This document shows positions 16,972 through 55,756 of a DNA stretch of 64,000 nucleotides, piece after piece. The stretch covers positions 1 through 64,000 of the forward strand of contig JAFGCD010000020.1 in the NCBI GenBank assembly GCA_016932835.1, in the 5' to 3' direction. Each line of letters starts with the position of its first letter. Position 1 is the stretch's first letter. The position numbers and the translations under genes are program-made. Below the pieces are notes generated by a model. The model did no database searches, was not told where the DNA came from, and saw only the letters and a list, made by a program, of their open reading frames with translations. Origin of the DNA: Sedimentisphaerales bacterium (GTDB lineage: Bacteria > Planctomycetota > Phycisphaerae > Sedimentisphaerales > Anaerobacaceae).

Positions 16972-19350
16972 TCAGAAACTCATATTCAGAACTCCGGCCG
17001 CGGCCATCTGGTTCTGAAGCAATGCCAGCACTTTTTCCAGGTGAGCGAATTTTCGTATCAGCCTGCTTTCTCTCTGCGTCAGGCGATATTCTTCGGTTTC
17101 GATCTTCTCGTCGAGTTCCTCTATCTGGTCCTCGGCCCTCTGCTGGTCGATCACGAGCGACCCGGTAGTAGCCTTCAGCATTCTGTCGATCTGATCTTCG
17201 ATCTTGCCTGTAAAGCCCTGCTTGACACGAACAGTTGCCGTATGTACGCCGTCAGTGCTCAAATCGACGCTCAATTGAAGTGAGTTCTCGGCATAGAGCG
17301 GTTCGCCATTCGAATCGAAGGTGCTGTTGCCCGTGACCGTATTGCCGCTGTAAGTGGCATCGCGCCAGGTCGATTCGTCTGAGAGCTTGATCTGCGCCGC
17401 TGTTATAACCCCGCCGCTGACCGTCACCCGAACGTCATACTCACCGGCGGTAGTATAATCAGAGTGGGCGTCGCTGAACTCGATAACGTCGCTCGTGCTG
17501 CTGCCGCTCTTATCCGCACCGATAACCGCCAGAACACCCATGTAGTCCTCGGCTATCGCCTCATCGAACTTGTTCGTCTCAAAGCTCAGAACCCCGTCTT
17601 TGTCCACATCCAGGCCTATATGCAGCGGAGTAAGGAACGAATCCACATCCTCGATGAATCCCGCGGTTTGCTCGATCAGCGGCTCGCGAAATTTATAACG
17701 GATTGTCGATACGACATAGTCGCCCATCAGCACCCCGGCCGTCTGGTTGACGTCATTGTAGCCGGTCTTTTCCTTGATGAAATCCATCGCGGCGTTATAC
17801 GCAGTGACAAGCGACGTAAGCTTATCCTTGACCGATTGAATATCCCTGGTCAGCGTCAATTCCTCGCCGCCGGCATCGGTCGTGTCGTGCAGATGCAGAG
17901 TAACGCCGTAGATAACGTCATCGACGGTATTCGAACTTCGGCTGATGTAAGCCGGCACGCCTTTCGTCGTTTCCACTACCGGAATGGGTTGTGTACTGGG
18001 TCCCAGATCAGTTCCGTCACCCGAAATCATGCTGACGTCGCCCAGAGTATCGCTGAATGTGAATGTTACGTCTCCGTCTGCCAGACCGTCGGCGCCGCCG
18101 GCGACTGTTATATCTCCTGCGTTCACTGTTGAAAGCGATTCCAGTGCCGCCTGGATAACCTCAGGAGCAGCATTGTAAGCAATCGCAGCCGTTGTCTGCC
18201 CTTCGTAAGTCAGCGTATAGGTGCCGTTGCCCGGATCGGGGCTGCGACTGATAGTCTGCACCTCCGAAGTCCCCGAACCCGCAGGATACCCGTCAACCTT
18301 AATCAGAGAGTCCCGCGCCGACTGGGTCTGAGTGAAATCGGATGCAGCGAACCCCGAAAGACTCGCAGCCGTCGCGCCGCCCTCGCTCGTTACGGACGCA
18401 TCGAGACCTGTCAGAGTGGTTGCCCCCGACCCTCCGTCGTAGGTCAGCGTGAATGAAAGACCGCTCGTCCCCGCCGCCTTGTCGGTCAGGACAATCTTGC
18501 CGTTATCGAGTGTCGCCTTGGCTATTCCGTCAAAGGCATCGTTAATCTCGGCAATTATATGGCTCAGTTTCGTGTTGCTGTTCACACTGAGATTCACCTG
18601 CGTAATGGTATTGCCGAGGTGATCCGTGCCCGTTATCTGAATCTGCTCGTCGCCAGAAAACGCGGTGTCGCCGTTCCACGCGAACTGATCCAGTTCCGTA
18701 ATCTTTGTTGTCAGCGTCGCGTTGTCACTGCCTACAGTCAGTGCAGAATCCGTCTTCCAGACCTCGGTGCTGCTGGCATTGACTGATATCCTGTAGTCCG
18801 AGCCGGCATCGTTGCCGTTGAGCACAAGGTGATACGCGTTATTGTAATACAACATGCTCGCCGTAACGCCCGGATTGTTTGCATCGTTGTTAATCAGGCC
18901 TACAAGGTCCTGAAGAGTCGTCGTCGCAGTCGTAGTGATACTCGTTTCAGTGTTATTGTACGAATAGATGAAAGTGCCGGCGCCGACGTAATCCTCGGCG
19001 TACTCCATGCCCGTCGCGTGGACCCATCGCTCCGACGTCGCCAACTGGTTGATCTCAACCGTATGATTGCCCTCGAAGGCCTCGTTGGTCGCCTCTGCCG
19101 TCAGATAGTCGGTATCGCTCGAAGATACGCTGTAGGCGCGAAGCATATCGGAATTCGACAGCGCCCGAACAGCGTTTCGAAGATTGCTCAGCTTGGTTTC
19201 GAGAGTGCTCAGGGCCTCCTGTCTTTCTTCCCAGACTTCCTTGCGATCCTCCCACGTATTCAGCGTCCGGCGCTCAAGCGCCATAAGCTGTTCGACCAGC
19301 GTGCCGGTGTCGATTCCTGATTGCAGCCCAGGAAGACGTAATGAAGGCAT
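16972..19350 (-). CDS. fliD: Flagellar filament cap protein FliD
   Basis: Filament cap that assists flagellin folding at the tip, 792 aa, long for the family. The N-terminal FliD_N domain starts MPSLRLPGLQSGIDTGTLVE with the heptad-rich helix that follows. The C-terminal FliD_C domain has KDKLTSLVTAYNAAMDFI and a terminal coiled coil (LDEKIETEEYRLTQRESRL). The middle is an enlarged set of beta-rich, Gly/Thr/Ser/Asp-rich domains likely exposed on the cap. GGCAGG lies before the ATG and a sigma-28 promoter at 19437-19463. Confidence 0.93.
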   Translation of the reverse strand: MPSLRLPGLQSGIDTGTLVEQLMALERRTLNTWEDRKEVWEERQEALSTLETKLSNLRNAVRALSNSDMLRAYSVSSSDTDYLTAEATNEAFEGNHTVEINQLATSERWVHATGMEYAEDYVGAGTFIYSYNNTETSITTTATTTLQDLVGLINNDANNPGVTASMLYYNNAYHLVLNGNDAGSDYRISVNASSTEVWKTDSALTVGSDNATLTTKITELDQFAWNGDTAFSGDEQIQITGTDHLGNTITQVNLSVNSNTKLSHIIAEINDAFDGIAKATLDNGKIVLTDKAAGTSGLSFTLTYDGGSGATTLTGLDASVTSEGGATAASLSGFAASDFTQTQSARDSLIKVDGYPAGSGTSEVQTISRSPDPGNGTYTLTYEGQTTAAIAYNAAPEVIQAALESLSTVNAGDITVAGGADGLADGDVTFTFSDTLGDVSMISGDGTDLGPSTQPIPVVETTKGVPAYISRSSNTVDDVIYGVTLHLHDTTDAGGEELTLTRDIQSVKDKLTSLVTAYNAAMDFIKEKTGYNDVNQTAGVLMGDYVVSTIRYKFREPLIEQTAGFIEDVDSFLTPLHIGLDVDKDGVLSFETNKFDEAIAEDYMGVLAVIGADKSGSSTSDVIEFSDAHSDYTTAGEYDVRVTVSGGVITAAQIKLSDESTWRDATYSGNTVTGNSTFDSNGEPLYAENSLQLSVDLSTDGVHTATVRVKQGFTGKIEDQIDRMLKATTGSLVIDQQRAEDQIEELDEKIETEEYRLTQRESRLIRKFAHLEKVLALLQNQMAAAGVLNMSF

Positions 19351-22334: not shown

Positions 22335-25300
22335 TCAGACCCAGACACCGTGCTCTTGAAGATCGGACCGCCTCACCGCCCGCGCAGCTCCGCCGACAAG
22401 AATGCCTGCGCCATGTTTTCGCGCTTGCGTAAGATACCACAAAACCTGCCGATGCTCGCAGCCCGCCTCAACGGCCTTGACTAATTCCTTTTCTGCATCC
22501 GCAAACATACCCTCACCGAAAAACGCCAACCCGTGCCAGAAATGCTCGATACCCGAGTTGACCCTTTCCAGTTCCGCCGGCAGAGCAAACGCCTCGGAAA
22601 ACCCATCATTCCACTTGAGACGTCCCGGCCTGGGATTGGCCCTCGGCACAAAATCACGCCAACGCCGCTGGCAGAGTTCTATGTCCCGAGCGCTCATTTG
22701 CGCATTGACCTGCTTCTGCGCATCGAGCAGATTGTCGTGAATCACAAAACACCCGGCCAGAGGAATCAGTTGCCGCCCGTTCTGGTAGAGCTTGTAACAC
22801 AAATCCGTATCCGCACAATAGAACCGATAGGTTTGGTCGAAACCGTCGGCTTCCCTGAAGCAGTCCAGCCGCACCAGCCCGTAGTTCATCAGCAGCTTGT
22901 TGCCGTGTGTGAAATCGATACCGAATTCGATCCAGTCTTCTCTTGTCGGGTGAAGATTCTTGTAGAAGAATATCCCGCCAGCAACTTCTTCGCCTTGCCT
23001 CTCCAGTATCTTCAATCCCCGCGAAATACAGCTCGGCCCGAATACGATATCGTCACTGGCGTACATCCCCCACTTCCCACGGGCCTGCGAAAAGCCGAAG
23101 TTATACAGTTCCGGCCAGGAGTGCCTCCCCGCCCCCAGCCAGCGCGACTCATGAAAAACCTGCCCCACATTATGACGCCGAAGCACGTCGAGAGTATTGT
23201 CCGATGAATCCCCTTCGACTGCAATCACTTCATAAACAATGCCTCCTGCCGACTCTTCCAGACTGCCTAACATCCGATCCAAAAGTCTCGCTCGATCCTT
23301 CGTACACACTACGATGCTCAAGTCGCACTCCGCCTCGCCGCCCACCTGCGATGCCTCTGCCGCCACCTTGCTGCTTACCCCTTCCGAAACGCCTGCCTCT
23401 GCCTCGACCGGTATGATCTCGACCTCATCCCTCTGCTCCAGGCCTTTCCAACCGGGCCTTCCTTCCCCTCCCTGCCACAGCGAAACCCCCTGCATGAATA
23501 CGCGGGGCCTGTCTGACGGCTCCTCAAGGCTCCGGCGAACCGCCTCCCTTAAAACGCTCGACGCCAAATCCTTAACGCAATGCGAATAGGCGTATCGGCA
23601 TGCCCAGTTGCACCCGTAGCAATCCAGCGGGAGGCACACCACCGAACTCAGCGCCGAATAGGGCATGAACCGGCCGAAATGTCCCCCGCCAAGAACGATA
23701 ACGTTCGGCGTCCCAACCGCGCAACTGATATGCGCAAGACCGCTCTCGGCCCCTACCGCAACTCTGCAGCGCCGCAGAATCGACGCACACTGACGAATAC
23801 TCGTCCGCCCGCTAAGATTCACGAATCGCGCGCCGGCAGCTAAAAGATTCCGCTCGTTGATCTCGTAATCGGACCCGCCACCCAAACCGATAATCGACAA
23901 TCCCTCAGCCGCACAGACTTCGGCAACGGCATCCCCGTATCCCTCATAGACCCGGCAGTCGTACTGCGCCCCCGCAAAAAGCGCTATCGTCCCGTCCGGA
24001 TCAAGACCGTTCTCCCTGAATACATCCTCCGCGTATCTCTCATCTTCCGGCATCGTCCAGACAACAGGCCCCAGCCTCTCGGCTGCGATCCCGAGCCCGG
24101 AAAGAAAATCGAGGTGACGCTCGAGCTCGAGCTTGTGCGTGTCGTCGCTGGCAATAAGCTTGCTGTAGTGCCTGTCATGAACGGCCTTGAGTTCCGCCGC
24201 GATATTGCATAGATCCCCTTCATGTGCAATCCGCAGTCCTGCCGAGCAGTTGACTGCGAAATAGTCCGTCAGCGCCTCCCTCGAATAAACGGAATTCAGC
24301 GACACCTCCGGCTTGAACTGTTGCAGCATCCCAACGACCCTGCGACGATAGGCGTTGTCACTAAGGGCTCGTTTCCGCTCGAAAGTCACAATATTGTCAA
24401 CATGAGGGCACGCCTTGTAAAGCTCCGCGATATGCCCCTGGCAGACAACGGTAATTGCGGCATTCGCCCATTTCGCCTTGATGTAAGGCAGCATCGACGC
24501 CGACAAGACCGCATCCCCGATAGCATCCGGACGAACCCAGATGATATTTTTCACTTCGAGCGCATCGGCCTGCAATGTCGCACGCCCCGCCTCCTTGCTC
24601 TGCGCCGCTCCCGCTAAAGCGTCCCTCGAAGATGCCACCTCCGTGCCCCCAGCGCCGGTCTTTGAGTGTCTTCGGATAAACTCGCCCATTACCTCGGGAT
24701 GCGTGCCGGTAAAGACCTGTGTCCGCGACTTCATGTCACCGGTCCAGATCGGATATCGCGAGTCAATCTCCTGCCGGTTCTCCGGCGTCCATTTCGAAAA
24801 GCATTCCTCATACCACTGCTGCAGGTCAACATGCCACTGCCTGCCCCACCCGTACCTGTGATACAATTCAATCTTCTGCCTGACCTGCTTATCGAAAACA
24901 TAGCTGTAGTGATACGGCATTATCCCCATATTTCGCGTGGCCGAGCCGCTCAGAAGATGCGTCTGTTCCGTTGTCTCCCTCCGACCGGACCAGACCATCG
25001 TCGGCGGACGATGAGTCGTAAAAACCGCGCCGGTAGCGTACTTGAAAAGCCTCCGATAGTGACATTCTTCCTCGAAGAACCGCGACGAAACGAAAATATA
25101 CTCGAATCCCTTCCAAAAACTGTCCGGGATGAAATTAACCTGCGTAATCGACGGGTCGTCTCGGAGAATCCCCTTAATTTTCTCAAGGTCGTCCTTTTTG
25201 TAAACCTCGTCGCAGTCCACAAGCCATACATAGTCTCCGGTGACATACTTCAGGGCCTCGTTCTGCATCTCGCACTTCTCCGGCCACCTGCCACGGATAA

Positions 25301-25580
25301 GTCTGATCTTGCCCTGCGGATCGGGAAAAGATTCGATAAACTCAGCCGTCCCGTCTATGCTCCCCCCGTCCGCACCGGCCGCGAACATGCACTTCTCAAC
25401 CGCCCCTTCCACGATTATGATCTCGTGCGCGAAGTCGTAAATCGCCTTCAAGCTGTACTCGATCAGCGGCATCCCGTTGAGCACGATCATGACAAACGAG
25501 AACCGAGGCGCTCGGCGCTCGACACTCCGCAAGCCGGTATTGACTCCCGCAGGATTGATAGCTGTCTTATCCGTATTCAA
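22335..25580 (-). CDS. GT2-GT9-GT2 fusion glycosyltransferase
   Basis: Giant fusion, 1081 aa from a TTG at 25580 preceded by AAGGAG at 5 nt; the upstream ATG at 25670 would overlap the preceding gene and lacks a ribosome site. Domain 1 (about 25-310) is GT2-like, with VMIVLNGMPLIEYSLKAIYD and LVDCDEVY. Domain 2 (about 345-700) resembles heptosyltransferases (GT9), with IIWVRPDAIGDAVLSASMLP and VAVGAESGLAHISCAVGTP plus a Cys-rich stretch (CYGCNWACRYAYSHC). Domain 3 (about 770-990) is a second GT2 (SIVVCTKDRARLLDRMLGSL, YASDDIVF). A helical repeat tail follows. The three catalytic units could add successive sugars. Confidence 0.8.
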   Translation of the reverse strand: MNTDKTAINPAGVNTGLRSVERRAPRFSFVMIVLNGMPLIEYSLKAIYDFAHEIIIVEGAVEKCMFAAGADGGSIDGTAEFIESFPDPQGKIRLIRGRWPEKCEMQNEALKYVTGDYVWLVDCDEVYKKDDLEKIKGILRDDPSITQVNFIPDSFWKGFEYIFVSSRFFEEECHYRRLFKYATGAVFTTHRPPTMVWSGRRETTEQTHLLSGSATRNMGIMPYHYSYVFDKQVRQKIELYHRYGWGRQWHVDLQQWYEECFSKWTPENRQEIDSRYPIWTGDMKSRTQVFTGTHPEVMGEFIRRHSKTGAGGTEVASSRDALAGAAQSKEAGRATLQADALEVKNIIWVRPDAIGDAVLSASMLPYIKAKWANAAITVVCQGHIAELYKACPHVDNIVTFERKRALSDNAYRRRVVGMLQQFKPEVSLNSVYSREALTDYFAVNCSAGLRIAHEGDLCNIAAELKAVHDRHYSKLIASDDTHKLELERHLDFLSGLGIAAERLGPVVWTMPEDERYAEDVFRENGLDPDGTIALFAGAQYDCRVYEGYGDAVAEVCAAEGLSIIGLGGGSDYEINERNLLAAGARFVNLSGRTSIRQCASILRRCRVAVGAESGLAHISCAVGTPNVIVLGGGHFGRFMPYSALSSVVCLPLDCYGCNWACRYAYSHCVKDLASSVLREAVRRSLEEPSDRPRVFMQGVSLWQGGEGRPGWKGLEQRDEVEIIPVEAEAGVSEGVSSKVAAEASQVGGEAECDLSIVVCTKDRARLLDRMLGSLEESAGGIVYEVIAVEGDSSDNTLDVLRRHNVGQVFHESRWLGAGRHSWPELYNFGFSQARGKWGMYASDDIVFGPSCISRGLKILERQGEEVAGGIFFYKNLHPTREDWIEFGIDFTHGNKLLMNYGLVRLDCFREADGFDQTYRFYCADTDLCYKLYQNGRQLIPLAGCFVIHDNLLDAQKQVNAQMSARDIELCQRRWRDFVPRANPRPGRLKWNDGFSEAFALPAELERVNSGIEHFWHGLAFFGEGMFADAEKELVKAVEAGCEHRQVLWYLTQARKHGAGILVGGAARAVRRSDLQEHGVWV

Positions 25581-25626
25581 CTTGGCTCCTTTTCTCTTTA
25601 ATTGGCAAAGCCGCACCGTCCGGCTG

Positions 25627-27810
25627 TCATCCGTAAATCCCGGCTCCATGTTCGCACTCATTCGCAGCATGTTCTATTCGTTCCAGCAGTTCCGCCGCGC
25701 CGCGATTGCCCGGCTCCAGCGACAGCTCCACCCGGCAGGCCCGCCTCGCCTCCTCAATCCTGCCTGCCTGAGCGTAAGCCGCAGCCAGCGCATAATACAA
25801 GTTCGGAAGCATCATACAGCCCGTCGCAGCATCTTCGAGATACCTGATCGCCTCAGTTGCGACCCCTTCGTTCAAACATTCGATGCCTTTCCTGAGTCTC
25901 TCCGCCGCCGCGGCCTTTTGCCCCGATTCCAACGAATCGAGCAGCAACCTCGATGCATTCGGCGCACAGCCCGACACCAGCTCGCGTCGGGCCGCGGCAA
26001 TGAGCCTCGTCCACAGTTCACCGTCGATTCGTGAGTTCAACTCGACGCACTGCCTGCGAACCTCCTCCGGCATCTGCCGGTATGAACTCTCGATGCACTT
26101 GATCGCCGCCGACAGATTATCTCCCTTGAGAAATTCGTCTATCCGCCTGAGCCTTATGCCAGCAGGCGTCAGTTCCCAGTTAGCATGTGACGTATAAGCC
26201 AGCGACCGGTCGTTGCCCCCTAACTCGATATTGCGACGCTGCTCTATCCTGAAACTATCCGACTTCTTCCCTCCCGCTATATGAGAAGAATCATGATCAT
26301 GGTGAACAATCATAACCGTGCCGCTCGCATCCACAACCGCCTTACCCGCAAGAAGAGGCTCGCGAACGAGCCAGTTGTCCCATACGTCGCGCCCGAGTGA
26401 CATCGGCGGAATAGAACCCCACAACCCCTTCCTGAACGCAAAATAGTCTATGCCCGTGGGCGCATGCAGCCGGCCTCTGAGTTTTACTTCGTCGATCAGT
26501 CTTTGCCGCCAGCCCGAAACGCCGAAATCGATCCCTTCCGTAACAGAAAGATCCCACCGCTGCCCTATCATCAGAAACTCGTCGAATCGCCCGCCGGCCT
26601 GCAAGACCGCCTCGCTGAAATCGTCCATCAGTATTATGTCCGCATTGACATAAACGCATATCTCGTTCGACGCTGTCGCCTCCGCTCTAACAAACAAATC
26701 GTTCAAAAAAGGCGTGCCGAACTCGTTGCATTCCACATTCGGAACATGCCTCAGGCCGTTTTCCCGACAGAACTCCTCCACGCCGTCGTCGCTGCCTAGC
26801 AAGATAATCTCCGGACGGTCTCTCAGCCGCATCCAGCTTCCTATCGCGTTTCTCTGGATCGTCGTAAACACGCCCCTGAAGGCCTTCGGCATAGCAAACA
26901 ACGTGAACCGCCCGTCCCCCCGATGCTCGCCGACGGATATGCCGGACTCATGCGAAACAGTATTACCTTGCCCTTGCTCTGCCGGGTCCGTAAACACCAA
27001 CTGTCCCGCCGATCCTTGCCGCATTGGAATAATAAGTTCGACCCCGCCCTTCTTCTGCGTAATGTACTCCTGATGCCGCGCGAAATTGACGGCATAGGCG
27101 CGATTATAGTTTTCCGTATAGTACCCCTCGTCGAATGTCCCCTTGCTCGCGACGGTATTGACCAGGTCGAACGGAATATAGATATTCCTCTTGCCCTGCT
27201 TGAGCAGCTTTATCCCCAGATCCAGGTCGTCGCCGCATGTCGGGCAAAAAGCCGTATCGAGCCCCCCGCACAACAACAAAAGCTCCCGGCTTATGCAGAA
27301 CGGCCGCGCTATCGAGTCAACCTGCCAGACGCCAAAATCATAGCACGGCAGGTTGTGCGATGAAAAATACTCCCCCTTGTGAGGCCGGTCAATCTCGATT
27401 CTCTTCAGCCTGATCTTCTCCGTATCGGGCAGAAGTTCAACTCCCGCCAGCAGCCCCGCCGCACCGACATTCTCAACCCGCCCTAAAACTTCGCCCAGCA
27501 CCCAATCCCACTGCTCGTCATATATCCAGTTGTCGTCCTGTATGAATATGATGTAATCGCCCGACGCATATTTCAACGCCAGGTTGTTGCAGAATATCTC
27601 GTACCTGTCGTCCGCAAACAGGAAAATATAGTCCTGCCTCTTCGCCCTCAGGTACCGGTGAAGAATCTCCACCGATGCATCTTTGCAGTCGTCGAAGACA
27701 ACGATTATCTCGCATTCGTGCCGCCCGGACAGATTTTTTATCCAACTGTCCATTACCGACTCAATCGATTCGGCCTTGTTGTAAACCTGAAAGGCAAGTG
27801 TAAACTTCAT
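25627..27810 (-). CDS. GT2 glycosyltransferase with TPR-like tail
   Basis: 727 aa from the ATG at 27810, which has GGAAGGGAA upstream and overlaps the previous stop by four bases. The N-terminal GT2 domain (1-260) starts FTLAFQVYNKAESIESVMDS and has IIFIQDDNWIYD. A second nucleotide-sugar-binding-like region (about 300-520) contains CVYVNADIILMDDF and VHHDHDSSH. The C-terminal part (about 540-727) has helical repeats ending ALAAAYAQAGRIEEARRACR, TPR-like. Part of the glycan island. Confidence 0.78.
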   Translation of the reverse strand: MKFTLAFQVYNKAESIESVMDSWIKNLSGRHECEIIVVFDDCKDASVEILHRYLRAKRQDYIFLFADDRYEIFCNNLALKYASGDYIIFIQDDNWIYDEQWDWVLGEVLGRVENVGAAGLLAGVELLPDTEKIRLKRIEIDRPHKGEYFSSHNLPCYDFGVWQVDSIARPFCISRELLLLCGGLDTAFCPTCGDDLDLGIKLLKQGKRNIYIPFDLVNTVASKGTFDEGYYTENYNRAYAVNFARHQEYITQKKGGVELIIPMRQGSAGQLVFTDPAEQGQGNTVSHESGISVGEHRGDGRFTLFAMPKAFRGVFTTIQRNAIGSWMRLRDRPEIILLGSDDGVEEFCRENGLRHVPNVECNEFGTPFLNDLFVRAEATASNEICVYVNADIILMDDFSEAVLQAGGRFDEFLMIGQRWDLSVTEGIDFGVSGWRQRLIDEVKLRGRLHAPTGIDYFAFRKGLWGSIPPMSLGRDVWDNWLVREPLLAGKAVVDASGTVMIVHHDHDSSHIAGGKKSDSFRIEQRRNIELGGNDRSLAYTSHANWELTPAGIRLRRIDEFLKGDNLSAAIKCIESSYRQMPEEVRRQCVELNSRIDGELWTRLIAAARRELVSGCAPNASRLLLDSLESGQKAAAAERLRKGIECLNEGVATEAIRYLEDAATGCMMLPNLYYALAAAYAQAGRIEEARRACRVELSLEPGNRGAAELLERIEHAANECEHGAGIYG

Positions 27811-30026
27811 ACGCTGTTTCCCTTCCTGCCGGCCCTTCGAGCGAAAACGCTTATCGAATGACACGTACCGACCAACTCGAAATCAGGAGAGCCTCTCAAC
27901 TCTTCAACTAACCGCGTCGGACCGGCCCACCCGCGCGAAAAAATCTTGTCTTCCGGGTCCTTGGCCATATTGTCTTTTCTCGAATCATGGATCAGTATTC
28001 GCCCGTCCCCCGCCACAAACCGCGACCACTGCTCGAAATCCCGCCTCACATCCTCGTAGTGGTGACTGCCGTCGATAAAAAGCAAATCGATTCCCTTCTC
28101 CCACAATCTTACTGCCTCATGGCTGTATCCCTTTGTCAAATGCCAGTCCTTAAGGGCATCGTTTCGATTGCTCTTCGACAGGGCCTCCGCAACGGCATAG
28201 CGACAGTCCTGCTCGCTCGCCTGCACCCCGCCCTTCGAATCCGGAACAAAAGGATCTATCGAGTACAACTGAACGCCCGGGCCCTTATTCAGCAGCAGCA
28301 GCGTCGTCGAACCCCCGTAAGCGCAGCCGATTTCGACTATCGTACGTGCAGCCTTGCCCGCTGACTCGGCAAGAAACGGTACCTCCTCCTCCGCAAGCCA
28401 GAACGGACGAGGAAAAACAGAAGACAACGCCTCCTTGCTCATAAGATTACCGCCCGAATCACATCCCCTCCCATCCTGCAGGTCCAGAAAAGAAGCGATA
28501 AGTGCGTACTTGTTCGCCTCGCTGAAGACCCCCTTCGCAATACCCTTGCCGCTGGCCCGCAGGCGTTCTTTCAAATCGGGATTATCCAACAGTGACCTCA
28601 CAGCCCGCCACAGACCTTCGGTATCCCCCGAAGGCGCCGCCAACCCCGTCCACTTATCGTACAGGTATTCCCGGTTTCCGAGGCAATCGAAAGCAACCAG
28701 CGCGCAGCCGCAGTGCAAGGCCTCCTGCTGGGTCCGCGGGCACCCCTCACCCCAAAGCTTGTCCTTGCCCCGATTGACGCCCACGAAGATATCCACCGTC
28801 CGCATCAACTCGGCAACTTCTCTTTCATCCCCCCTTATCTCCACAAGCTCGGCCCCGCGACCGTATTCGCGCGCCCGCTTCGACAGAAAATCGAACGTCT
28901 GCCTGTCCTGCTCCGACGCATCCGGCATGCACCCTATACGTCCAGCCACCCTTGCGACCGCATCTTCATAAAACACCGACTCATCCGACCATTCGTTTAT
29001 CAAAGCAGGCCTGATCCCATAGTTGGCCATATACCAGCTCTGGATATATCGGCTGTGTGTCCCGATCTTGGCAATCTTGTCCCTGTCGAGGTAGTCAGCC
29101 AGCTTCTCTCGAAAGTGCAGCGTCCACTTCAATTCCGCATCGAAATAATAGAACTTCCCCGAACCTGCAAGCTCCTCCAGTCCCGGCGTATCCAGCCACG
29201 AAGTGACCACTCGAACCTGGTCGCCTTCTCTTTTAAAGGCTTCTGCCTCCGCATAACTTATAACCCGCTCCGGCTTGACCAGCCATTCGTCATAGCATCC
29301 GTTAACCGTCGCTATCCGGGCGTATATCCCGTGGCTTCGCAGCAGCCTACACCAGAGATTGTAAATCTTCGTCCCCCCGTTGAACCGCTTGAGCGTCCCC
29401 GAAGTCATAACCACCTTCGTAGCTTTATCCCGGCCAATGCCGCATGCCGACGGCCATTGAATCGCTCCTGCATTCGCCCCCGGAAAACACATCGCCGCTT
29501 TCAGCTCGCCCGCCAGCCGGCCCATTTCAGTATCTCCCGGAAACATCTCGACATACTTCTCGGCAAATCCCGCCGCCTTGCCCGCATCGCACGCATCCAA
29601 CGCTGCGACCGCGCAATTGTAAACCGCATCACGATCGTAAGGCTCTATCTCCAGCGACCGCAGCAGATACTCCAACCCTTCGCCTGCACGACCCTGCGAC
29701 GCAAGAAGCACGCCAAGATTCCTCAACGCCCTGTCGTGACTCCGATGTCGGCGGATAAAATCGACAAGAATCGCCTCCGCCCCCGACAAATCCCCGATCT
29801 CCGCCCTCACTTCCGCCTCTAAATTCTCAATATCGCCGCACCCTGCGTACTTCTCCCGCGCATAAGATACCGCAGCCAAAGCCTTATCCGCCAGCCCTGC
29901 CGCGCACAGCTCCTTCAACACCCCGGGCAGTCCCTCCGGGTTACAATCTATGAACTCGCGAAGATCATCCCGCAGATGATCACTCGTCATCGACGCGGCG
30001 GCATTCTTTTGCTCTGTCCAATCCAT
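27807..30026 (-). CDS. TPR - glycosyltransferase - methyltransferase fusion
   Basis: 739 aa from the ATG at 30026 (GGGGAGG 8 nt upstream; an in-frame ATG at 30086 would overlap the preceding gene). Residues 1-175 are TPR repeats (ALRNLGVLLASQGRAGEGLE). About 190-530 is a GT-B glycosyltransferase with the donor-site motif GEGCPRTQQEALHCG. About 545-735 is a class I SAM methyltransferase of the Methyltransf_24 type, with VEIGCAYGGSTT and FIDGSHHYEDVRRD. The fusion suggests a sugar is added and then methylated on a TPR-bound acceptor. That coupling is inference. Confidence 0.8.
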   Translation of the reverse strand: MDWTEQKNAAASMTSDHLRDDLREFIDCNPEGLPGVLKELCAAGLADKALAAVSYAREKYAGCGDIENLEAEVRAEIGDLSGAEAILVDFIRRHRSHDRALRNLGVLLASQGRAGEGLEYLLRSLEIEPYDRDAVYNCAVAALDACDAGKAAGFAEKYVEMFPGDTEMGRLAGELKAAMCFPGANAGAIQWPSACGIGRDKATKVVMTSGTLKRFNGGTKIYNLWCRLLRSHGIYARIATVNGCYDEWLVKPERVISYAEAEAFKREGDQVRVVTSWLDTPGLEELAGSGKFYYFDAELKWTLHFREKLADYLDRDKIAKIGTHSRYIQSWYMANYGIRPALINEWSDESVFYEDAVARVAGRIGCMPDASEQDRQTFDFLSKRAREYGRGAELVEIRGDEREVAELMRTVDIFVGVNRGKDKLWGEGCPRTQQEALHCGCALVAFDCLGNREYLYDKWTGLAAPSGDTEGLWRAVRSLLDNPDLKERLRASGKGIAKGVFSEANKYALIASFLDLQDGRGCDSGGNLMSKEALSSVFPRPFWLAEEEVPFLAESAGKAARTIVEIGCAYGGSTTLLLLNKGPGVQLYSIDPFVPDSKGGVQASEQDCRYAVAEALSKSNRNDALKDWHLTKGYSHEAVRLWEKGIDLLFIDGSHHYEDVRRDFEQWSRFVAGDGRILIHDSRKDNMAKDPEDKIFSRGWAGPTRLVEELRGSPDFELVGTCHSISVFARRAGRKGNSV

Positions 30027-30045: not shown

Positions 30046-31137
30046 TCAGTTTTCAACTCCGACCCCCGCCTCGACCGCTGCTTCACTTGCCGCCGAGCCG
30101 AGCATCGGATGCTCCCTGTAATCCAGAGGCACCTTCTCAGCCTTGAACACAGGCTCCAGATACTTCTCGTTGAATTCGATGCTCTCGCTCGCCAGGCAAT
30201 ACCCCGGCCTGCTCATGAAAATCTCCTGACACCACAGCCGATCCATGATTTCTTCGAGAGCCTCTTCAAGCATATTACCGAACGAGATATGTATGAAAGT
30301 ACAGGGACATACGCTGCCGTCCGGCAGAATATATATCTTCTTACGGCCGGCGGGACATTCGTACTTCTCCGCAAGAACCGTAAAATCGCTCGTTACATTC
30401 GGAAGTTTGAAATACTCACGCACCTCCCGTATCTCCGAAGGCGTAAGCAGTTCATCGTAATCACCCGTATATTCGCCGCACAACGCCGGATAATTCACAT
30501 TCACACGAATTCCCTTGCGCACCGCGAATTCGATGAGCCTCCGATATTCGCCGTTGGCAATGCTCTGGCGAGTAGGAACCACAGCAATAGAAACGCACAT
30601 CCCCGATTCGCGAGCTGAGTCTATGCTCTCCAGAGCCTTGTCAAACGCCCCCGGTTTGCACACGAAACTGTCATGGCTTTCCGCCTTGCCGCCGTTAAGG
30701 CTGAACCCGATACTGAACAGCCCCGCCTTTTTCAACTCTCGCAAATACCCCTTATCAACAAGGTAGCCGTTCGTGATAATCGTCGGCAGAATCCTCCGTT
30801 CGTGAAACTTCGAGACAATCTCACACAAATCCTTCCTCAAAGTCGTCTCGCCCCCCACCAGGCAGCACAAGAAGCAATCCATCCGCCGAAGCTGCTCGGC
30901 GACATGCTCGATTTCATCGAGGCTCATCCACTGCTTGAAATCACGCTGCTTCTGAAATTTCGATATCGAGCAATGAAGGCACTTGAAATTACATCGAGTA
31001 TCGAAGAATAATTCCGCATTCCACAAAAATTTCCTGCCCTGCCGGATATTACGCTTTCGCTTAAGCAGATTGCCGTATGCGTAGAGGTGTCCCTTGAACC
31101 AGTGGGCATTCCTGAATTTCTTTATACTGTTCAGCAT
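30046..31137 (-). CDS. Radical SAM protein with SPASM-like C-terminus
   Basis: 363 aa. The cluster-binding motif CNFKCLHC (Cys49, Cys53, Cys56; CxxxCxxC) is intact, followed by LVGGETTL (the GGE motif). The C-terminus has extra cysteines (ECPAGRKKIYILPDGSVCPC) like SPASM/Twitch domains, which bind auxiliary iron-sulfur clusters. Such enzymes modify peptides, proteins or sugars by radical chemistry. The substrate cannot be read from sequence. It sits between a methyltransferase and a glycosyltransferase fusion. Acting on a nucleotide sugar, a glycan or a flagellar protein are all possible. Confidence 0.82.
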   Translation of the reverse strand: MLNSIKKFRNAHWFKGHLYAYGNLLKRKRNIRQGRKFLWNAELFFDTRCNFKCLHCSISKFQKQRDFKQWMSLDEIEHVAEQLRRMDCFLCCLVGGETTLRKDLCEIVSKFHERRILPTIITNGYLVDKGYLRELKKAGLFSIGFSLNGGKAESHDSFVCKPGAFDKALESIDSARESGMCVSIAVVPTRQSIANGEYRRLIEFAVRKGIRVNVNYPALCGEYTGDYDELLTPSEIREVREYFKLPNVTSDFTVLAEKYECPAGRKKIYILPDGSVCPCTFIHISFGNMLEEALEEIMDRLWCQEIFMSRPGYCLASESIEFNEKYLEPVFKAEKVPLDYREHPMLGSAASEAAVEAGVGVEN

Positions 31138-31143
31138 CGGACT

Positions 31144-32001
31144 TCAACTCCCCTGGGCTTTCTTCGCCCTTACACACAAATGCCAGCCGTACCGTCGTTC
31201 CATCAGGCGGAAGATGCTCCGCGGAACATAGCGAAAATACCATACTTTCCGGTATCGGCCGGCCCTGTAATCCGCAATCCGATACGGAAAAATATGCTCC
31301 ACCTTCGTCTCCACAACATCGAATCCTTTGAGAAGATCCTTTATGCTGTCCCGCGTATAGCTGTAAGTAACCGGACAACCCGTTTGGGCTTCCGAGTATC
31401 GTGCGATCAGTTCATCCGCCTTGCCGAAGGCCCTAACGTCACGCCGAAGGCTTCTCACCAATATCCAAAACGTCTTCCACGAATACCGATGATAGACCAT
31501 CATCCGCAACTCGCTCTCGGCCCCCAGATATTTGGCAATCTCCGAAACAGCACGCCCCGGCCGCGGCGTATGGTGTATCACCCCGAAAGAATACACTAAA
31601 TCGTAACACTCGACCGGGACGACTTTCGATATCTCTTCCGCATTGGCTCTATGGAAATCAATATCCAACCCATATACTTCAGCCCGCCTTCGCGCGATAT
31701 CCAGCGACTTCTCCGAATAATCTATAGCGGTAACCTGCGCGCCGGCCCTGGCAAAATTGATCGTATCGGTTCCGATTCCGCAGCCGATCTCCAGAACCTT
31801 CTTGCCCTTCCACCGCTCGAACTGGGCAAAACCGGGTATGTGCGGCTCTACGAAGTACTTCCTCGCTTCGACATCCTCGAAGTATTCCAGGCTCCCCACT
31901 TCCCGCCGGGAATGGCGAATATTGCAGGGCCTGGCGTCCCAGAACGCCCCGACCGTCTCCATACTGACGCTGCTGAAATCTTTCACCGCGCACCTTGACA
32001 T
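31144..32001 (-). CDS. Class I SAM-dependent methyltransferase
   Basis: 285 aa. The SAM-binding motif [16 protein letters not shown] lies near residues 70-85, with [16 protein letters not shown] as motif II and [13 protein letters not shown] as the post-motif, a typical Methyltransf_11/25 layout. The start overlaps the dehydrogenase gene by 19 bp, so the two are translationally coupled. Probably methylates a small molecule or sugar of the glycan. An exact substrate cannot be given. Confidence 0.82.
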
Positions 32002-33320
32002 GTGACGCTCGCCCCCAAACCTGAACCTATGTAGTGAAACTTTCTGAACCGCCGCGACGACAGCTCGCGCCAGCTATCCAGCAAAACAGAGCCATCCTTC
32101 GCATTATTCTCAATCCGCTCCCAATCCAGTTCCCTGAACCCGGGCCATCGCGTCAGAAGAACAACGGCATCCGCGCCGCAGACGCACTCGTATGGATCGC
32201 CCCGGTACTCGACCGCCTCGCCCAATACCTCCGCCGCAGAATCCAGGGCCGCCGGGTCGTGAACCCTTACGCTGTAGCCCGCATCGACAAGTCTCTCCGC
32301 CAGCATCATCGATTGCGATTCTTCAATTATATGCGTATCCTCCTTGTAGGACAGGCCCAGCAGCGCCACGCCCCCCCCCGCCCGCACACTGGTCTTGATA
32401 TGACCGAGGAGTCTTTCCACAACCGCCTCATTGACGGCGACCGTAGCCCGGCTTATCTGCGCCTCGTGACCAACTTCCCTCGCGAAAGCCCCGAACGCAA
32501 CATTGTCGCGAGGAAAGCACGTACCCCCGAACCCAAGCCCGCCTCGAAGATAAGCCCGCCCAACACGCCTGTCGGCCCCGATTGCATCGGTAATCGCATC
32601 GACATCCGCACCCGGTATCAGCTCGCATATCGCGCTGAGCTCATTCGCGAAGCTTATCTTCGTCGTAACAAAACAATTCAGGGACAGCTTCGTTATCTCG
32701 CCGTTCAGCAGCGACATCTTAGCAATATAAGGCTCATTCTCGCATGAACTGAGATAAAGCTCTTCGACAATCTCCGCGGAATGATCGTCCGATGCGCCGA
32801 TAAGCACCATGTCGGGTCTGGAAAAATCCCGAATCACCGACCCTAAAGCTATGAACTCGGGATTGTAAACAAGCCCGAACCCCTCCCCGCAGACCTTGCC
32901 GCTCGAATCCTCTAACAGGGGCTTGAATGTCCCTTCGCACGAACCCGGCATAACCGTCGAAACAACGTCAACCACGTGAAACCCGGCCTTGGCCCCGACC
33001 TCCGGCCCGATCTCGCGCAGCACCGTCTCGACATACTCGTTCGAAAATCTTCCCTCCGGCCCGCTCGGCGTCGGAACGATAATCAGAGTTACATCCGAAT
33101 TCCGAACCGCCCGGCAAATCTCTCCTGTAACCGTCAAGTTCTCCCATGCCTCTTCCAGAAGCTCGCCCAGCCCCGTCTCCCTCACAGGACAGCGCCTCGC
33201 ATTCAACTCTTCGATAAAATGTTCGTTGGCATCGACGCCGACGACCCTGTGGCCCTTAGACGCGAAGTAAGCCGCCGTACACAGGCCCAGCTTGCCCAGT
33301 CCAACTACCGATATTTCCAT
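31983..33320 (-). CDS. UDP-glucose/GDP-mannose dehydrogenase family protein
   Basis: 445 aa, the normal length for the family. NAD-binding Rossmann motif at the N-terminus ([20 protein letters not shown]), the central domain with [15 protein letters not shown], and the catalytic cysteine Cys268 in [10 protein letters not shown]. The C-terminal UDP-binding domain has [19 protein letters not shown]. It oxidises a nucleotide sugar to the uronic acid in two steps, presumably making a uronate donor for the neighbouring glycosyltransferases. Whether the substrate is UDP-glucose, UDP-GlcNAc or another sugar is unclear. Confidence 0.88.
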
Positions 33321-33341: not shown

Positions 33342-34661
33342 TCAAATGAACTTGTACGTCATACTGTCACTCAGAATCACCTGCTCGTATATCTCATTGT
33401 GAGGCTGGTAAGTGCACCTCGGACATTCGTTGTGAACCACAATTCGGTCGTGAATGTCCCAATGCGCCCTGCTCCCCCACAACTTATTGATCTGCTCTGC
33501 GTTTTCGATATTTCTCGCCAGTTCCAGCTTCGCATCCCCCCGCCTGTCGCAGCACAGCCCGACCGTGAAAGAATCCTTCGGAGCATCCGCCCCCACAGGC
33601 GGCTCGATCACGGCAGTCATAAATATCGAATGACACCTGCTGAAATAGTTCGCACTGCCGAACTGAGAATTGAATTTGTGCGTGATCCCGTAAACGCCGA
33701 AACCTTCGTCATCCAGCTCCAGAGCCTTCGCCGCCTGCTCCTCGAACAGCAATATATCTTCTCTCGAAAAACTTATTTCACCGTCGGTGCCGAGCTTGTC
33801 CCACGTCGTGCCCGCAGGTCTGAAATGAATGTTCTTGCACCCCAGACGCTTTGCAAGCTGGGCCGCTTCATATACCTCCCCGATATTGCCCTCATAAAGA
33901 AGGTACTTGAAGCTGACGCCGTAGGCCGGGTGTTTCCACCCTAACTTGTTGTTATGCATCTTTGCATAATCGACGAGCATCGCAATATTATTCACAACGC
34001 TGTCGAACAGATCGCAATCGTCGGATAGTCCCTTCAGCTTATTGTAGGTCTGCCTTGTAGCTGCATCCACCGATACCCCGACCCACACAGCCTCGCTCAG
34101 CGGATCCACAAACCTGTCGATCATCGTACCGTTAGTCACGACCCCAACATCGATATCGTGGCCGACCACCCTGTCTATAAACCCTCCTGTCGCATTATCC
34201 AGCAGCGGCTCGCCGCCGCCTGCGATGCAAATCGCCTGCACCCCGACTTCTCCGCACCCGGTCCCCGCGCCCCACAGGGGAAGGAAATCGGCAATCTCCG
34301 TCAGCGCCTTCTCCGACAGCGAACCCCTTCGCTCTTTCCGCACAAATTCCGCATTGCACCACACGCAATTCAGATTGCAGACATTCGTCGGATCCACCGT
34401 AATCAATACAGGCGGAGGAATAGACCGCCCGCGCTTGATCTTCTTCCATCGCTCGACCTGAGCAAGAAGCTTATAGCTGTTGAAAGGATTCCATCTCTTG
34501 CTCGGATTCCATTCGCGCCGGACGGCGCCTGGCGCCCGCGCCGCACTGCCCGCAACCTCACCGGCGGCATGCGAATTCAGGGAACCACCGCTGACCTGAG
34601 GCACATACGTCACCGACCCACCGTCTGCTTCAAGCACTGCCTTCTTCTTCACAACAAACAT
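33342..34661 (-). CDS. Second radical SAM protein, SPASM-like
   Basis: 439 aa. CNLNCVWC (Cys95, Cys99, Cys102) binds the radical SAM cluster, and AGGGEPLL supplies the GGE motif. A C-terminal cysteine set (GLCCDRRGD and NECPRC) indicates an auxiliary-cluster domain. The N-terminal 80 residues are an extra, Gly/Ala/Ser-rich extension. It is distinct from the other radical SAM gene of this island. It lies after the FliT-like gene and before the sugar dehydrogenase. Function in glycan or protein modification is inferred only from context. Confidence 0.8.
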   Translation of the reverse strand: MFVVKKKAVLEADGGSVTYVPQVSGGSLNSHAAGEVAGSAARAPGAVRREWNPSKRWNPFNSYKLLAQVERWKKIKRGRSIPPPVLITVDPTNVCNLNCVWCNAEFVRKERRGSLSEKALTEIADFLPLWGAGTGCGEVGVQAICIAGGGEPLLDNATGGFIDRVVGHDIDVGVVTNGTMIDRFVDPLSEAVWVGVSVDAATRQTYNKLKGLSDDCDLFDSVVNNIAMLVDYAKMHNNKLGWKHPAYGVSFKYLLYEGNIGEVYEAAQLAKRLGCKNIHFRPAGTTWDKLGTDGEISFSREDILLFEEQAAKALELDDEGFGVYGITHKFNSQFGSANYFSRCHSIFMTAVIEPPVGADAPKDSFTVGLCCDRRGDAKLELARNIENAEQINKLWGSRAHWDIHDRIVVHNECPRCTYQPHNEIYEQVILSDSMTYKFI

Positions 34662-34685: not shown

Positions 34686-35012
34686 TCACTTCCTTGCTGC
34701 CTGCAGGCTGTCGCGATACACTCCGACTGTTCTCTTGCCTCTGCGAATCCGGCACAGTTCCCTGCCAACCTCGTCCAGTTGCCCGCTTAGACTCAGGTTC
34801 AACTCATGATACAACCGCTCTATGCGAACCCGTATGTCATTGAACTGCTTATCCTTCAGTATCCCCGACTTGCCGATTTCCTCGGCAATCCCTGTCGCCT
34901 CGATGCTAAGCGCCTCGATCTCGTGCACCTTGCCCTGACGCGCAAGCCGGATCTGCTCTTCCAACAGTCGCTGCAATTCGTCCGCCAGCCGCATTCGTCT
35001 GTCGTCAGCCAT
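34686..35012 (-). CDS. Small helical protein, FliT/FlgN-like chaperone candidate
   Basis: 108 aa from the ATG at 35012, which has GGGGGCAGG upstream and overlaps the previous stop by eight bases. The protein is all-helical and charged (RLADELQRLLEEQIRLARQG... RVRIERLYHELNLSLSGQLD), with the length and helix pattern of FliT/FlgN export chaperones. A separate FlgN candidate exists near flgK, so this one could serve FliD or flagellin. No diagnostic motif is present and the call is tentative. Confidence 0.5.
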   Translation of the reverse strand: MADDRRMRLADELQRLLEEQIRLARQGKVHEIEALSIEATGIAEEIGKSGILKDKQFNDIRVRIERLYHELNLSLSGQLDEVGRELCRIRRGKRTVGVYRDSLQAARK

Positions 35013-35646
35013 ACGCCCTGCCCCCATGTTGTTTTTGACCCGTCAGTCCCTGCTCTACTTCCTCCAGAAGATTCGCCGCGTCGCTGTGCGACGGCTCAAG
35101 CGCGAGTATATCCCGCAAAAGTGCGCCGGCCTGCTCCAGGCGACCCTCCTTGACATAGAGCGCCGCCAGAGAAAACATCACCGAACCGTCGCCCGGGTGC
35201 ATCCCGAGATAAACCTCCAGATAATGAATCACCTGACCGAAAGAACCCATCCGGCACGAAGTCTGAAACAGACCGAGCAAGGCCGTCAGATTATCCGTGT
35301 CGCGTTCGAGGCACTGCAGATACATATCAAACGCCTTTTGGTACTCCTTTTTTTCCTGAGCCGCCATCGCAAGACCCGCATACCCCCTCGAACAATTCGT
35401 ATCCAGCCGGCAAGCAACACGAAACGCTATCTCGGCATCCTCAAGAAGCCCCTCCTGCAAAGCTACCACACCAAGACCGACATACGGATCAGCCTCATCA
35501 GGACCGAGCGACGCAGCCTTCTCATAGGACCGCCGAGCCTGCTCCAAACTCCCGACAGAAGCATAGCAATCCCCTAACTCCAGCAGAACCTCATAACGCT
35601 GAGACGTGTTCTGATACTCCCCGATGTCATTGTGTGTTATGTCCAT
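35005..35646 (-). CDS. TPR protein
   Basis: 213 aa made almost wholly of tetratricopeptide repeats: LGDCYASVGSLEQARRSYEK, VGLGVVALQEGLLEDAEIAF, GLAMAAQEKKEYQKAFDMYL and further units with the usual Gly8/Ala20 pattern. No signal peptide or membrane segment, so cytoplasmic. It overlaps the upstream glycosyltransferase gene by 10 bp. It may be a scaffold or acceptor-binding partner for the island's enzymes, several of which carry their own TPRs. Confidence 0.8.
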   Translation of the reverse strand: MDITHNDIGEYQNTSQRYEVLLELGDCYASVGSLEQARRSYEKAASLGPDEADPYVGLGVVALQEGLLEDAEIAFRVACRLDTNCSRGYAGLAMAAQEKKEYQKAFDMYLQCLERDTDNLTALLGLFQTSCRMGSFGQVIHYLEVYLGMHPGDGSVMFSLAALYVKEGRLEQAGALLRDILALEPSHSDAANLLEEVEQGLTGQKQHGGRAYG

Positions 35647-37208
35647 ACCTTCTCTTTTCCTTCAAGTATCCACTCAGCGTCTTCCAGAAGCATTATCGCA
35701 GAGCTGAAATTCTTTTCCTTAATCCTGACCCTCGCTTCCAATAGAAGCGTATCGACTGTCGGCCTTATCTCATTGAGCCGGTGCGCCAGCTCTGCTGCCT
35801 TATCGAATTCACCGGCCTTATAGTAAGCCTCCCCGGCCAGCGCCTTTATCCATACCTCATTGCCGTACTCTGCGACGATCCGCTCGAACATCCGCGCCGA
35901 ATCAGCCCACTTCCCCTCCTTCGCCGCCGATTTGGTTTGGCACAGTAATTGGTCGAATTGAAACGGTATCTCTCCAGGATGCACGCGACGCAAAGCAATG
36001 CCGTAAGCGGCCAGTGACTCCCGAACAGGCATATCCGCAAAGCGCCGCCGGGCCTCTCGAAGATTCTCAGTCCTCAATACAGCCCCCCACGCCTCCTGCG
36101 TCGAATCTTCGAGTTCGAAGCCTTCTCCGCTTCGCCCGCTGTTAATCAGCGCATACAACGAGTCTTCGAGCCAGAATTCCCTTATAGCCAGCCCGTCCGG
36201 AACCACCGCTGCATACTCCCCCCCGCACCTCGCCAGCGCCGCATCCACGAGACCTGCCTCGGTTGCCCCCTCCGCAACCGGCACTACGACAATATTGGGC
36301 ATGCTCGTATCCAGCCTTTCGCAATCACCCTGCGAAAGAGGCAGGTACAACTCGTAAGGATAGAACGTGTGACGCCAGATCGAAGCTACCTTGCTCCCCG
36401 ACTCCCGGTTCAAATGCCTCGTAACGAAAATGATCGACACATCCTCAATCTTCGACCAAGGCTTCGCCGGCCTCGTCGTCCGAATGGCCATCACATTGCG
36501 AAGGTATTCGTTCTCATCCTGCCGACGACGCACCGAAACCCTGTCGCTCTCCCCCACAGAACTGTAGTATTCACCCGTAATTGTCGGCACGTGATAGAAA
36601 TCCGTAAAGAAGCACAGCCTTCGCGTCAAATCCCAGTCTATCAGGACATTAAGCTCTTCGTTGTAAGGACCGGCCTTCGCAAGAAGATCCCGACGGTGCA
36701 TCAGGCTAACGTGAAGCGTATGATTGAAATACAGCATCACGAATCGCTCGAAATCCCTGCTAACCTCAACAACCTTGCTCAGAACCTCCCTGACCCCGTC
36801 CTCTTTGACTCGGCAGTATGTCCTGTAAAGGTCGCTGTAGGCAGCACCGCATTCGGTTTCATTCTCAAGGGCGTTGACCAGAGTCCGAACATGATTACGG
36901 TAGTACAAATCGTCGTTGCCGAGATAGCAGATGTATTTCCCCTCGGCGCGGGACAGCCCTTCGTTAAGCGTAAACGGTATCCCTCGATTCTCGCTCCTGT
37001 CGATCAAAACGATTCGCGAATCTCCGAAAGACTCCACAACATCCCTGATCTCCTCCCCGCCGTCCCTGCACACGAGTATTTCGAGATTGTCGTAATCCTG
37101 ACGAACAACACTCGCTATTGCCGCACGCAAATACTCCCGCCGGTTATAACTCGGTATTAACACATTGACAAGCGGGCCCGATTCTGCGTCAAAGTTCTCA
37201 ACTGTCAT
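35637..37208 (-). CDS. GT2 glycosyltransferase with C-terminal TPR
   Basis: 523 aa. Canonical GT2 domain at about 10-250: VNVLIPSYNRREYLRAAIAS, YICYLGNDDLYY and LIDWDLTRRL. A middle part (250-400) looks like a degenerate second sugar-transferase fold. The last 110 residues have TPR-type helices (FERIVAEYGNEVWIKALAGE, YKAGEFDKAAELAHRL). Cytoplasmic. Sugar and acceptor are unknown. Confidence 0.8.
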   Translation of the reverse strand: MTVENFDAESGPLVNVLIPSYNRREYLRAAIASVVRQDYDNLEILVCRDGGEEIRDVVESFGDSRIVLIDRSENRGIPFTLNEGLSRAEGKYICYLGNDDLYYRNHVRTLVNALENETECGAAYSDLYRTYCRVKEDGVREVLSKVVEVSRDFERFVMLYFNHTLHVSLMHRRDLLAKAGPYNEELNVLIDWDLTRRLCFFTDFYHVPTITGEYYSSVGESDRVSVRRRQDENEYLRNVMAIRTTRPAKPWSKIEDVSIIFVTRHLNRESGSKVASIWRHTFYPYELYLPLSQGDCERLDTSMPNIVVVPVAEGATEAGLVDAALARCGGEYAAVVPDGLAIREFWLEDSLYALINSGRSGEGFELEDSTQEAWGAVLRTENLREARRRFADMPVRESLAAYGIALRRVHPGEIPFQFDQLLCQTKSAAKEGKWADSARMFERIVAEYGNEVWIKALAGEAYYKAGEFDKAAELAHRLNEIRPTVDTLLLEARVRIKEKNFSSAIMLLEDAEWILEGKEKVWT

Positions 37209-37234: not shown

Positions 37235-38740
37235 TTAACGCTGCTCAACAGGTGCACACTGTCTTACCCCGCCGCTCGGTAAAACACTGCTTTGCTCACC
37301 CTCCCCGACGCCGCATTCTCCGGCTTCGGCATCCCCTTCGCTGTTTATCTCGGCCTCCAAATCGCTGAAAATAGCGTTGATGCGGCGCAACTGCCGTGCC
37401 AGCGAATATCGCGATTCCACGAATTCCCGGTATCGCCGAGGCTCATAACGCTCGCTAAGAACTTGATCGCAGAATTCCTCCGAGATATTGAACAGAAATT
37501 CCGACGGGAGCATCTGACCGGCCCCTAAAAAATTGTGGACTACCGGCTTGAGCCCGCAGGCCATCCCTTCCAGAATACCTACGGGATGACCCTCGCAAAT
37601 CGACGTCGAGACTATGTAGTGCTTGTCACCCAGCCAATCGGCAACATCGCTCTGCCAGCCGTCGAAGAATACCGCATCACCCAAACCAAGAACATCGACC
37701 ATCTTGCGCAGATACTGTTCCAGCACCTCGTCCTGAAAAGCGCCCCCGAAAAACAGCCGATACTCGCCGTCCATGTAATGAAGCTTCTGCATGCACTGCA
37801 GCATCAGCATCGGGTTCTTAACCAGCCTAAGGTTGCCGAGGAAAGCGATATTCTTGCCCCGGGGCTTCTCGACGAACGGAAATTTCTTGAGATTCACCCC
37901 GTTGGGCACTATTGAAATGGAAGTCTGGCTCTCCAGACCGGCAGCCCGGCCCCGAAGCGTTGCCAGCGTTACCGGATTCCCAACTGTAACCAGAATATCT
38001 ATGTTCCGCCAATTCACCTCCGCAGGCCACCGCTCATAAGCCTCATACCGGTGAAGACGAACAATATTCCGGCACACCTTCGGCTTCTTTGAGGCTGCCA
38101 CGGCAAGATTCGTGCACCATTCGAACCACGAAATGTCGCTCCACTGCATCAGTTCATACAGCTCGTCCTCCGTCTGCCCCTCAAATACGCGAACCTCGAA
38201 ACGGCGTTCCGCAAACTCGATGATCTCCCGCAGAAATGTCATCCCGTCACCCCCGCAGAAAAAAGCTATCCTCGGCCTTTTAGACCGAATCACCTGCACT
38301 ATCGGAGTAAGGACTTCCTGTCCAGGAGAAAAACTCAGAGAGCGAAGCAGCATCTCAAGCGCATTAGCCTTGTCGTTCTGCTGAAGGAAAACATTGGCGG
38401 TCCTGTTCAAAACGTCCGCACTCAATACCCCAATCTGCTCCATATCGTCGAAAAGATACATCGCCTCTTTTGCCCTGCCCCCTGCGATATACGCTTCCGA
38501 TAGATTCCAGAGTATCTCGCCGCTGTCCGACTTCAACGTTTTGGCCTTGATGAAATGCTCGATGGCCTCATCGGTTCGGCCGAGACAATGAAGTATCGCA
38601 CCTGTATCATTAAGCGCCTCGGCATCGTTAGGAGACATCCCGAGATGAAGGCGGATATGCTCGAGAGCTTCCTGGTGTCTGCCGGCCTCGGCCAATTCCA
38701 GGCCCCTGCGGTAATGATCTGACTTGATATGGCTCGTCAT
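37235..38740 (-). CDS. TPR - GT4 glycosyltransferase fusion
   Basis: 501 aa from the ATG at 38740 (GGAG 9 nt upstream). A longer frame opening at 38845 starts inside the sigma-54 element and is not credible. Residues 1-130 are TPRs (LELAEAGRHQEALEHIRLHL, LNDTGAILHCLGRTDEAIEH). About 155-470 is a GT-B fold with KNIAFLGNLRLVKNPMLMLQ and STSICEGHPVGILEGMACGL (E-x7-E donor site). The arrangement resembles TPR-bearing protein glycosyltransferases, where repeats bind the protein acceptor. First gene of the island's apparent operon. Confidence 0.82.
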   Translation of the reverse strand: MTSHIKSDHYRRGLELAEAGRHQEALEHIRLHLGMSPNDAEALNDTGAILHCLGRTDEAIEHFIKAKTLKSDSGEILWNLSEAYIAGGRAKEAMYLFDDMEQIGVLSADVLNRTANVFLQQNDKANALEMLLRSLSFSPGQEVLTPIVQVIRSKRPRIAFFCGGDGMTFLREIIEFAERRFEVRVFEGQTEDELYELMQWSDISWFEWCTNLAVAASKKPKVCRNIVRLHRYEAYERWPAEVNWRNIDILVTVGNPVTLATLRGRAAGLESQTSISIVPNGVNLKKFPFVEKPRGKNIAFLGNLRLVKNPMLMLQCMQKLHYMDGEYRLFFGGAFQDEVLEQYLRKMVDVLGLGDAVFFDGWQSDVADWLGDKHYIVSTSICEGHPVGILEGMACGLKPVVHNFLGAGQMLPSEFLFNISEEFCDQVLSERYEPRRYREFVESRYSLARQLRRINAIFSDLEAEINSEGDAEAGECGVGEGEQSSVLPSGGVRQCAPVEQR

Positions 38741-55755: not shown

Positions 55756-55756
55756 T

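Follow-up and report, generated by a model that had tools for sequence, protein, structure and literature searches.

The interval between flgL and fliD of a Sedimentisphaerales bacterium, lying within the 64,000-nucleotide stretch analysed here (hereafter, the window), encodes four neighbouring giant fusion proteins, which we call P1 to P4, embedded in an island rich in glycosyltransferase (GT) genes. The feature is real, well conserved, and larger than the first-pass annotation of this DNA had stated. The same enzymes recur in the same order in related genomes, differently split and fused, which suggests that a sugar chain on a flagellar protein is their joint product. We put at about 0.68 the probability that the island serves to extend and methylate, in the cytoplasm, an O-glycan carried by flagellin or a different filament protein, by means of GT modules tethered to each other.

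Features of the flagellar glycan island, in positions of the window (module limits in P1 follow the numbering of the 1,111-aa frame)
Feature	Position	Strand	Domains and remarks	Evidence
FliD filament cap	16972..19350	minus	downstream island border	Pfam/NCBIfam
P4	19537..22314	minus	GTj without family (~6-295, conserved VDDN), GT2k, GT2l; adjoins fliD	Pfam, motifs
P1	22335..25580	minus	GT2a ~50-345, GT9 heptosyltransferase-type 370-765, GT2c 771-1095	Pfam/NCBIfam, motifs, AF2 model
P2	25627..27864	minus	GT2d, GTe without family (~311-585), C-terminal TPR	Pfam, hhalign
P3	27807..30086	minus	TPR, GT4 (PF00534), Methyltransf_24 (PF13578, 6.1e-17)	Pfam
Radical SAM/SPASM protein	30046..31137	minus	within gene run	Pfam
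SAM-dependent methyltransferase	31144..32001	minus	Methyltransf_25/11	Pfam
Nucleotide-sugar dehydrogenase	31983..33320	minus		TIGR03026 over cut-off
Second radical SAM protein	33342..34661	minus	retained in several relatives' islands	
TPR protein	35005..35646	minus		
GT2-TPR protein (GT2m)	35637..37208	minus	retained in most relatives' islands	
TPR-GT4 protein (GT4n)	37235..38845	minus	FlmG/OGT-type domain order; retained in most relatives' islands	
FlgL (hook-filament junction protein)	39004..40188	minus	upstream island border	TIGR02550, 170 bits vs cut-off 127.2

The first-pass annotation had described three consecutive fused proteins, and P1, P2 and P3 do follow each other in a row, their genes overlapping or nearly so. 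The first was called a GT2-GT9-GT2 fusion of 1,081 aa, and this is borne out: Pfam finds two significant PF00535 (GT2) stretches flanking PF01075 (GT9, residues 540-687; 54.9 bits, 1.1e-14), and residues 376-712 yield an NCBIfam heptosyltransferase II match, the GT9 module scoring below every NCBIfam equivalog cut-off. The length of 1,081 aa corresponds to a TTG start at 25580, which is preceded by AAAAGGAGCCAAG and, with AAAAGGAGCC closely upstream, has a good Shine-Dalgarno sequence, while the first in-frame ATG, at 25670, opens a longer frame of 1,111 aa. For P2, proposed as a GT2 protein with a second nucleotide-sugar-like domain plus repeats, Pfam recovered the GT2 domain (residues 27-119) and the C-terminal TPR; the second domain, GTe, had no Pfam match and is left unassigned, the nucleotide-sugar-like label resting on a conserved VNxD motif and on its similarity (hhalign 95%) to a module of relatives, X, which likewise lacks a Pfam family. 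GTe (P2 residues 311-585) and X (L045:6319-7308) are related modules sharing the VNxD motif, and may be regarded as a candidate new glycosyltransferase family. The TPR-GT-methyltransferase fusion was recovered by Pfam as P3, with a GT4 in the middle. P4, a further multi-module fusion and the next gene after P1, had been missed, as had the two TPR-linked GTs of the island, GT2m and GT4n. GTj of P4 belongs to no Pfam family, and a PDB search with it gave nothing useful. Overall, the run of genes encodes up to about 11 GT modules, nine of them Pfam-supported and two (GTe and GTj) candidates.

Module-wise alignments with relatives show intact catalytic motifs. GT2a keeps DCD/DSD, GT2c keeps ASDD and ADTD, GT2k keeps LDSDD and AED, and GT2l keeps VDSDD and VED, all of them DxD-type pairs, and in the GT9 module of P1 the Asp of IGD (Asp386) is conserved along with His647. 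The reading as inactive remnants was rejected, as the catalytic motifs are kept; a genuinely degenerate copy does exist in the relative G015, where the first GT2a has DPV in place of DSD and has lost the His. The AlphaFold model of P1 was moderate overall (mean pLDDT 54), with GT-A-like and GT-B parts, of which the GT9 part is confident and the first GT2 part usable, while the C-terminal GT2 (GT2c) was poorly modelled, as was P2 (pLDDT 44) outside its TPR part, which alone is confident. Foldseek searches with P1 returned GT9 and WaaF/WaaC structures in the top ranks (3tov, 1psw, WaaC), a result informative mainly for the GT9 part.

The GT9 module of P1 combines a GT-B fold, the PF01075 signature and the motif Asp and His, and resembles the WaaC/WaaF heptosyltransferases in sequence, fold and these family-motif residues; unlike them, it is embedded between two GT2 domains and carries a conserved CxxCxxxCx6C near its end (P1 residues 684-698). 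The cysteine motif is present in nearly all relatives, among them a Telmatospirillum MAG whose GT9 stands alone; it is a possible metal site. RfaE domain II was detected over cut-off in the window's genome, marking an ADP-heptose synthesis gene, which makes a supply of ADP-heptose plausible, and the GT9 module may add heptose.

With flgK-flgL on one side and fliD on the other, and every gene on the minus strand, the island is a cluster of GT and sugar-modifying genes amid flagellar ones. Genes for FlgH, FlgI, FlgK and FlgL lie upstream on the same strand, and those for FlhB, FliR and FliP lie beyond FliD on the opposite strand. The protein at 39004-40188 could be taken for a flagellin, since Pfam calls a flagellin N-terminal domain there, but NCBIfam identifies it as FlgL over cut-off. 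Two radical SAM proteins (30046-31137 and 33342-34661) are encoded inside the island, and two long TPR proteins lie side by side at 53146-56806, after a sigma-54 activator gene. The island proteins that were scanned include neither a polymerase nor a flippase, and an ABC exporter and an initiating phosphoglycosyl transferase are likewise missing from them. The window's genome has no match to Maf (PF01973), and Maf-type initiation was rejected on that ground.

True flagellins (~260-278 aa) are encoded outside the island, on another contig (C46) of the window's own genome, G000, which is a draft assembly of 157 contigs. Two short flagellin genes are followed there by genes for a TPR-GT41 protein (OGT-like; L071:2655-4529), a Gfo/Idh oxidoreductase, a hexapeptide transferase and a DegT aminotransferase, and this arrangement probably represents a second flagellin glycosylation locus. 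The order of a TPR followed by a GT-B domain, as in OGT and FlmG, is thus found in the protein at 37235-38845, in P3 and in the TPR-GT41 near flagellin. In G000, G015 and G024 the flagellin genes have a TPR-GT41 gene as neighbour, whereas the f7 genomes tested encode no GT41; the initiating enzyme may therefore differ between lineages.

At no fewer than 18 Planctomycetota loci, including the window, a GT-rich island was found that ends at fliD, which directly follows the last GT ORF; Verrucomicrobia L027, with fliD on a different contig, and G421 were excluded from this count. Those relatives that have a name are MAGs of Planctomycetota (two belong to Sedimentisphaerales), with weaker matches in Verrucomicrobia and a Telmatospirillum MAG. 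The order of orthologous modules is invariant, with 142 module pairs in order and none out, while the ORF boundaries move: of five boundaries counted, three are fused in some relatives and split in others, and the fused/split counts are 8/1 for GT2a/GT9, 4/2 for GT9/GT2c, 5/6 for GT2c/GTj and 9/0 for GTj/GT2l. Island ORFs reach 2,008 (G001), 2,071 (G019), 2,184 (G024) and 2,396 aa (G050 and G054), the longest having 2,435 (G004), 2,622 (L026) and 3,085 aa (L028). Pfam searches on tiles revealed extra modules between the orthologous ones, namely GT4, GT2, Methyltransf_24, Methyltransf_11/23, FkbM and TPRs, and methyltransferases stand between GTs in arrangements such as GT2-MT24-GT9 and GT2c-FkbM-GTj. 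In a distant family of the phylum, ORFs measuring 2,492-2,736 aa also contain GT9 and GT2c modules, and in G304 these ORFs lie directly beside flgK-flgI-flgH. When all GT2 ORFs of three whole genomes were compared, multi-GT2 ORFs made up 5 of the 8 inside the island and none of the 35 outside it (Fisher p 5.8e-5, to be read as descriptive, the three genomes being related). Since multi-GT2 ORFs are confined to the island in the three genomes checked, the GT2 fusions found there are not due to chance.

Further multi-domain GT ORFs were seen, of 2,309 aa at L042:4281-11207 (G024 C89) and of 1,341 aa at L043 (G001 C233). In the Verrucomicrobia MAG, an ORF no shorter than 3,128 aa (L027:14194-23577) carries a GT2, a GT4, a TPR stretch of roughly 1,000 residues, two GT4 and a GT2, and adjoins a GT2a-MT24-GT9 ORF, without fliD linkage.

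The flagellar position, the lack of Maf, the lack of lipid-carrier and export functions among the scanned island proteins, and the TPR-GT proteins of FlmG-like order together point to cytoplasmic O-glycosylation of a filament protein. The chain is probably started by a soluble TPR-type GT, either the island TPR-GT4 or the TPR-GT41 encoded next to the flagellin genes, which would attach a sugar to Ser/Thr of flagellin, or of a different filament protein, ahead of export. P3, P2, P1 and P4, with their several GT modules, would then lengthen the chain by one sugar per step, with methyltransferase modules adding methyls to residues along the way. Fusion of the GTs, together with the TPRs, would hold glycoprotein and enzymes together, raising the local concentration and yielding a fuller chain prior to secretion. 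In Caulobacter, FlmG binds flagellin through its TPR domain (PMC7591256). The acceptor, the identities of the sugars, the order of their addition and the hand-over of substrates are as we infer them. The first-pass annotation had read the fusions as a sign of successive sugar addition and capping by methylation on a bound acceptor. The fusions, their intact motifs and their flagellar setting are borne out, and the module order that relatives keep across shifting boundaries fits physically coupled, successive addition. As to capping, methyltransferases are indeed present, but methylation is probably more than a final cap, because in relatives such modules lie between GTs.

How far the coupling goes is a separate matter. 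Fusion and TPRs make physical coupling of the modules likely, while a strict assembly line, in which TPR arms hold the acceptor and pass it along the GT and methyltransferase modules in their encoded order, so that module order equals sugar order, is possible only, and on balance we think it quite unlikely. It would explain why module order is unchanged although gene boundaries move, why methyltransferases are interleaved with GTs and why TPRs occur inside or beside the giant proteins; but the order might merely be inherited, as conservation of this kind can be due to shared descent, splits at GT9/GT2c and GT2c/GTj are tolerated, and neither a docking nor a carrier domain is recognised in the modules, the TPRs being of a generic kind. 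The boldest form of this idea, that glycan megasynthases of up to ~3,100 aa decorate Planctomycetota flagella, their GT and methyltransferase modules working, in the order in which they are encoded, on a flagellar protein held by TPRs, whereby gene order could reveal the glycan, strikes us as more doubtful still. At the other extreme, fusion could be a product of drift, in which adjacent operon genes are easily joined via overlapping stop and start codons without functional coupling. Neighbouring genes do overlap or nearly so, and boundaries vary among relatives, but restriction of the GT2 fusions to the island in the three genomes checked (5/8 vs 0/35) and recurrence of giants in a number of families, and again in a second lineage, make this account unlikely.

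A different product altogether, a lipid-linked polysaccharide such as O-antigen or capsule made by an island whose flagellar position is incidental, has some appeal, given that GT9 is the LPS heptosyltransferase family and that O-antigen clusters are known to encode multi-module GT and methyltransferase proteins (PMC11231755). The polymerase, flippase, exporter and initiating functions missing from the scanned proteins, and linkage to fliD at no fewer than 18 loci, argue to the contrary, and we regard such a product as very improbable. Of the Klebsiella/E. coli enzymes in question, WbbB, WbdA and ORF6-O7 also carry several GT modules per polypeptide, partly with a methyltransferase, and the division of modules over polypeptides varies by serotype (PMC11231755). 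The WbbB/WbdA type, however, is a lipid-linked polymerase-terminator with a coiled-coil ruler and an ABC exporter, whereas the present system has TPRs and a flagellar locus.

Among flagellar systems, the closest comparison to the cytoplasmic O-glycan extension that we favour is with P. aeruginosa PAO1 PA1088-PA1091 and C. difficile cd0240-cd0244, which are likewise flagellar glycosylation genes with a participating methyltransferase (PMC11833859). PA1091/FgtA is a GT2 joined to a phosphotransferase, the latter being a separate gene in C. difficile (PMC11833859); PA1091 vs cd0240/cd0244, together with the Klebsiella O-antigen enzymes, thus provides a precedent for fusing and splitting such modules. 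Those systems have one fused protein with one GT, as opposed to the four neighbouring fused proteins described here, with about nine supported GT modules including GT9 and GT4, and an FgtA-type phosphotransferase was not found in the island. Caulobacter FlmG, which performs O-glycosylation in the cytoplasm before export (PMC7591256), shares its TPR-GT domain order with P3 and the protein at 37235-38845; the likeness is one of domain order, and FlmG itself adds pseudaminic acid to flagellin and is no multi-GT fusion. The first-pass annotation knew of no standard flagellar enzyme with the GT2-GT9-GT2 layout, and this agrees with the papers searched, although fused flagellar glycosylation enzymes as such do exist, as FgtA illustrates (PMC11833859). 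No account of fused proteins like these in flagellar clusters turned up in our literature searches, and flagellar glycosylation in Planctomycetota is apparently undescribed in the papers searched.

The natural pairs of split and fused proteins, with the same modules in the same order, constitute a comparative set with which to ask whether tethering of GTs controls the completeness or the order of a glycan, and the methyltransferases located between GT modules predict that the glycan would contain internally methylated residues.
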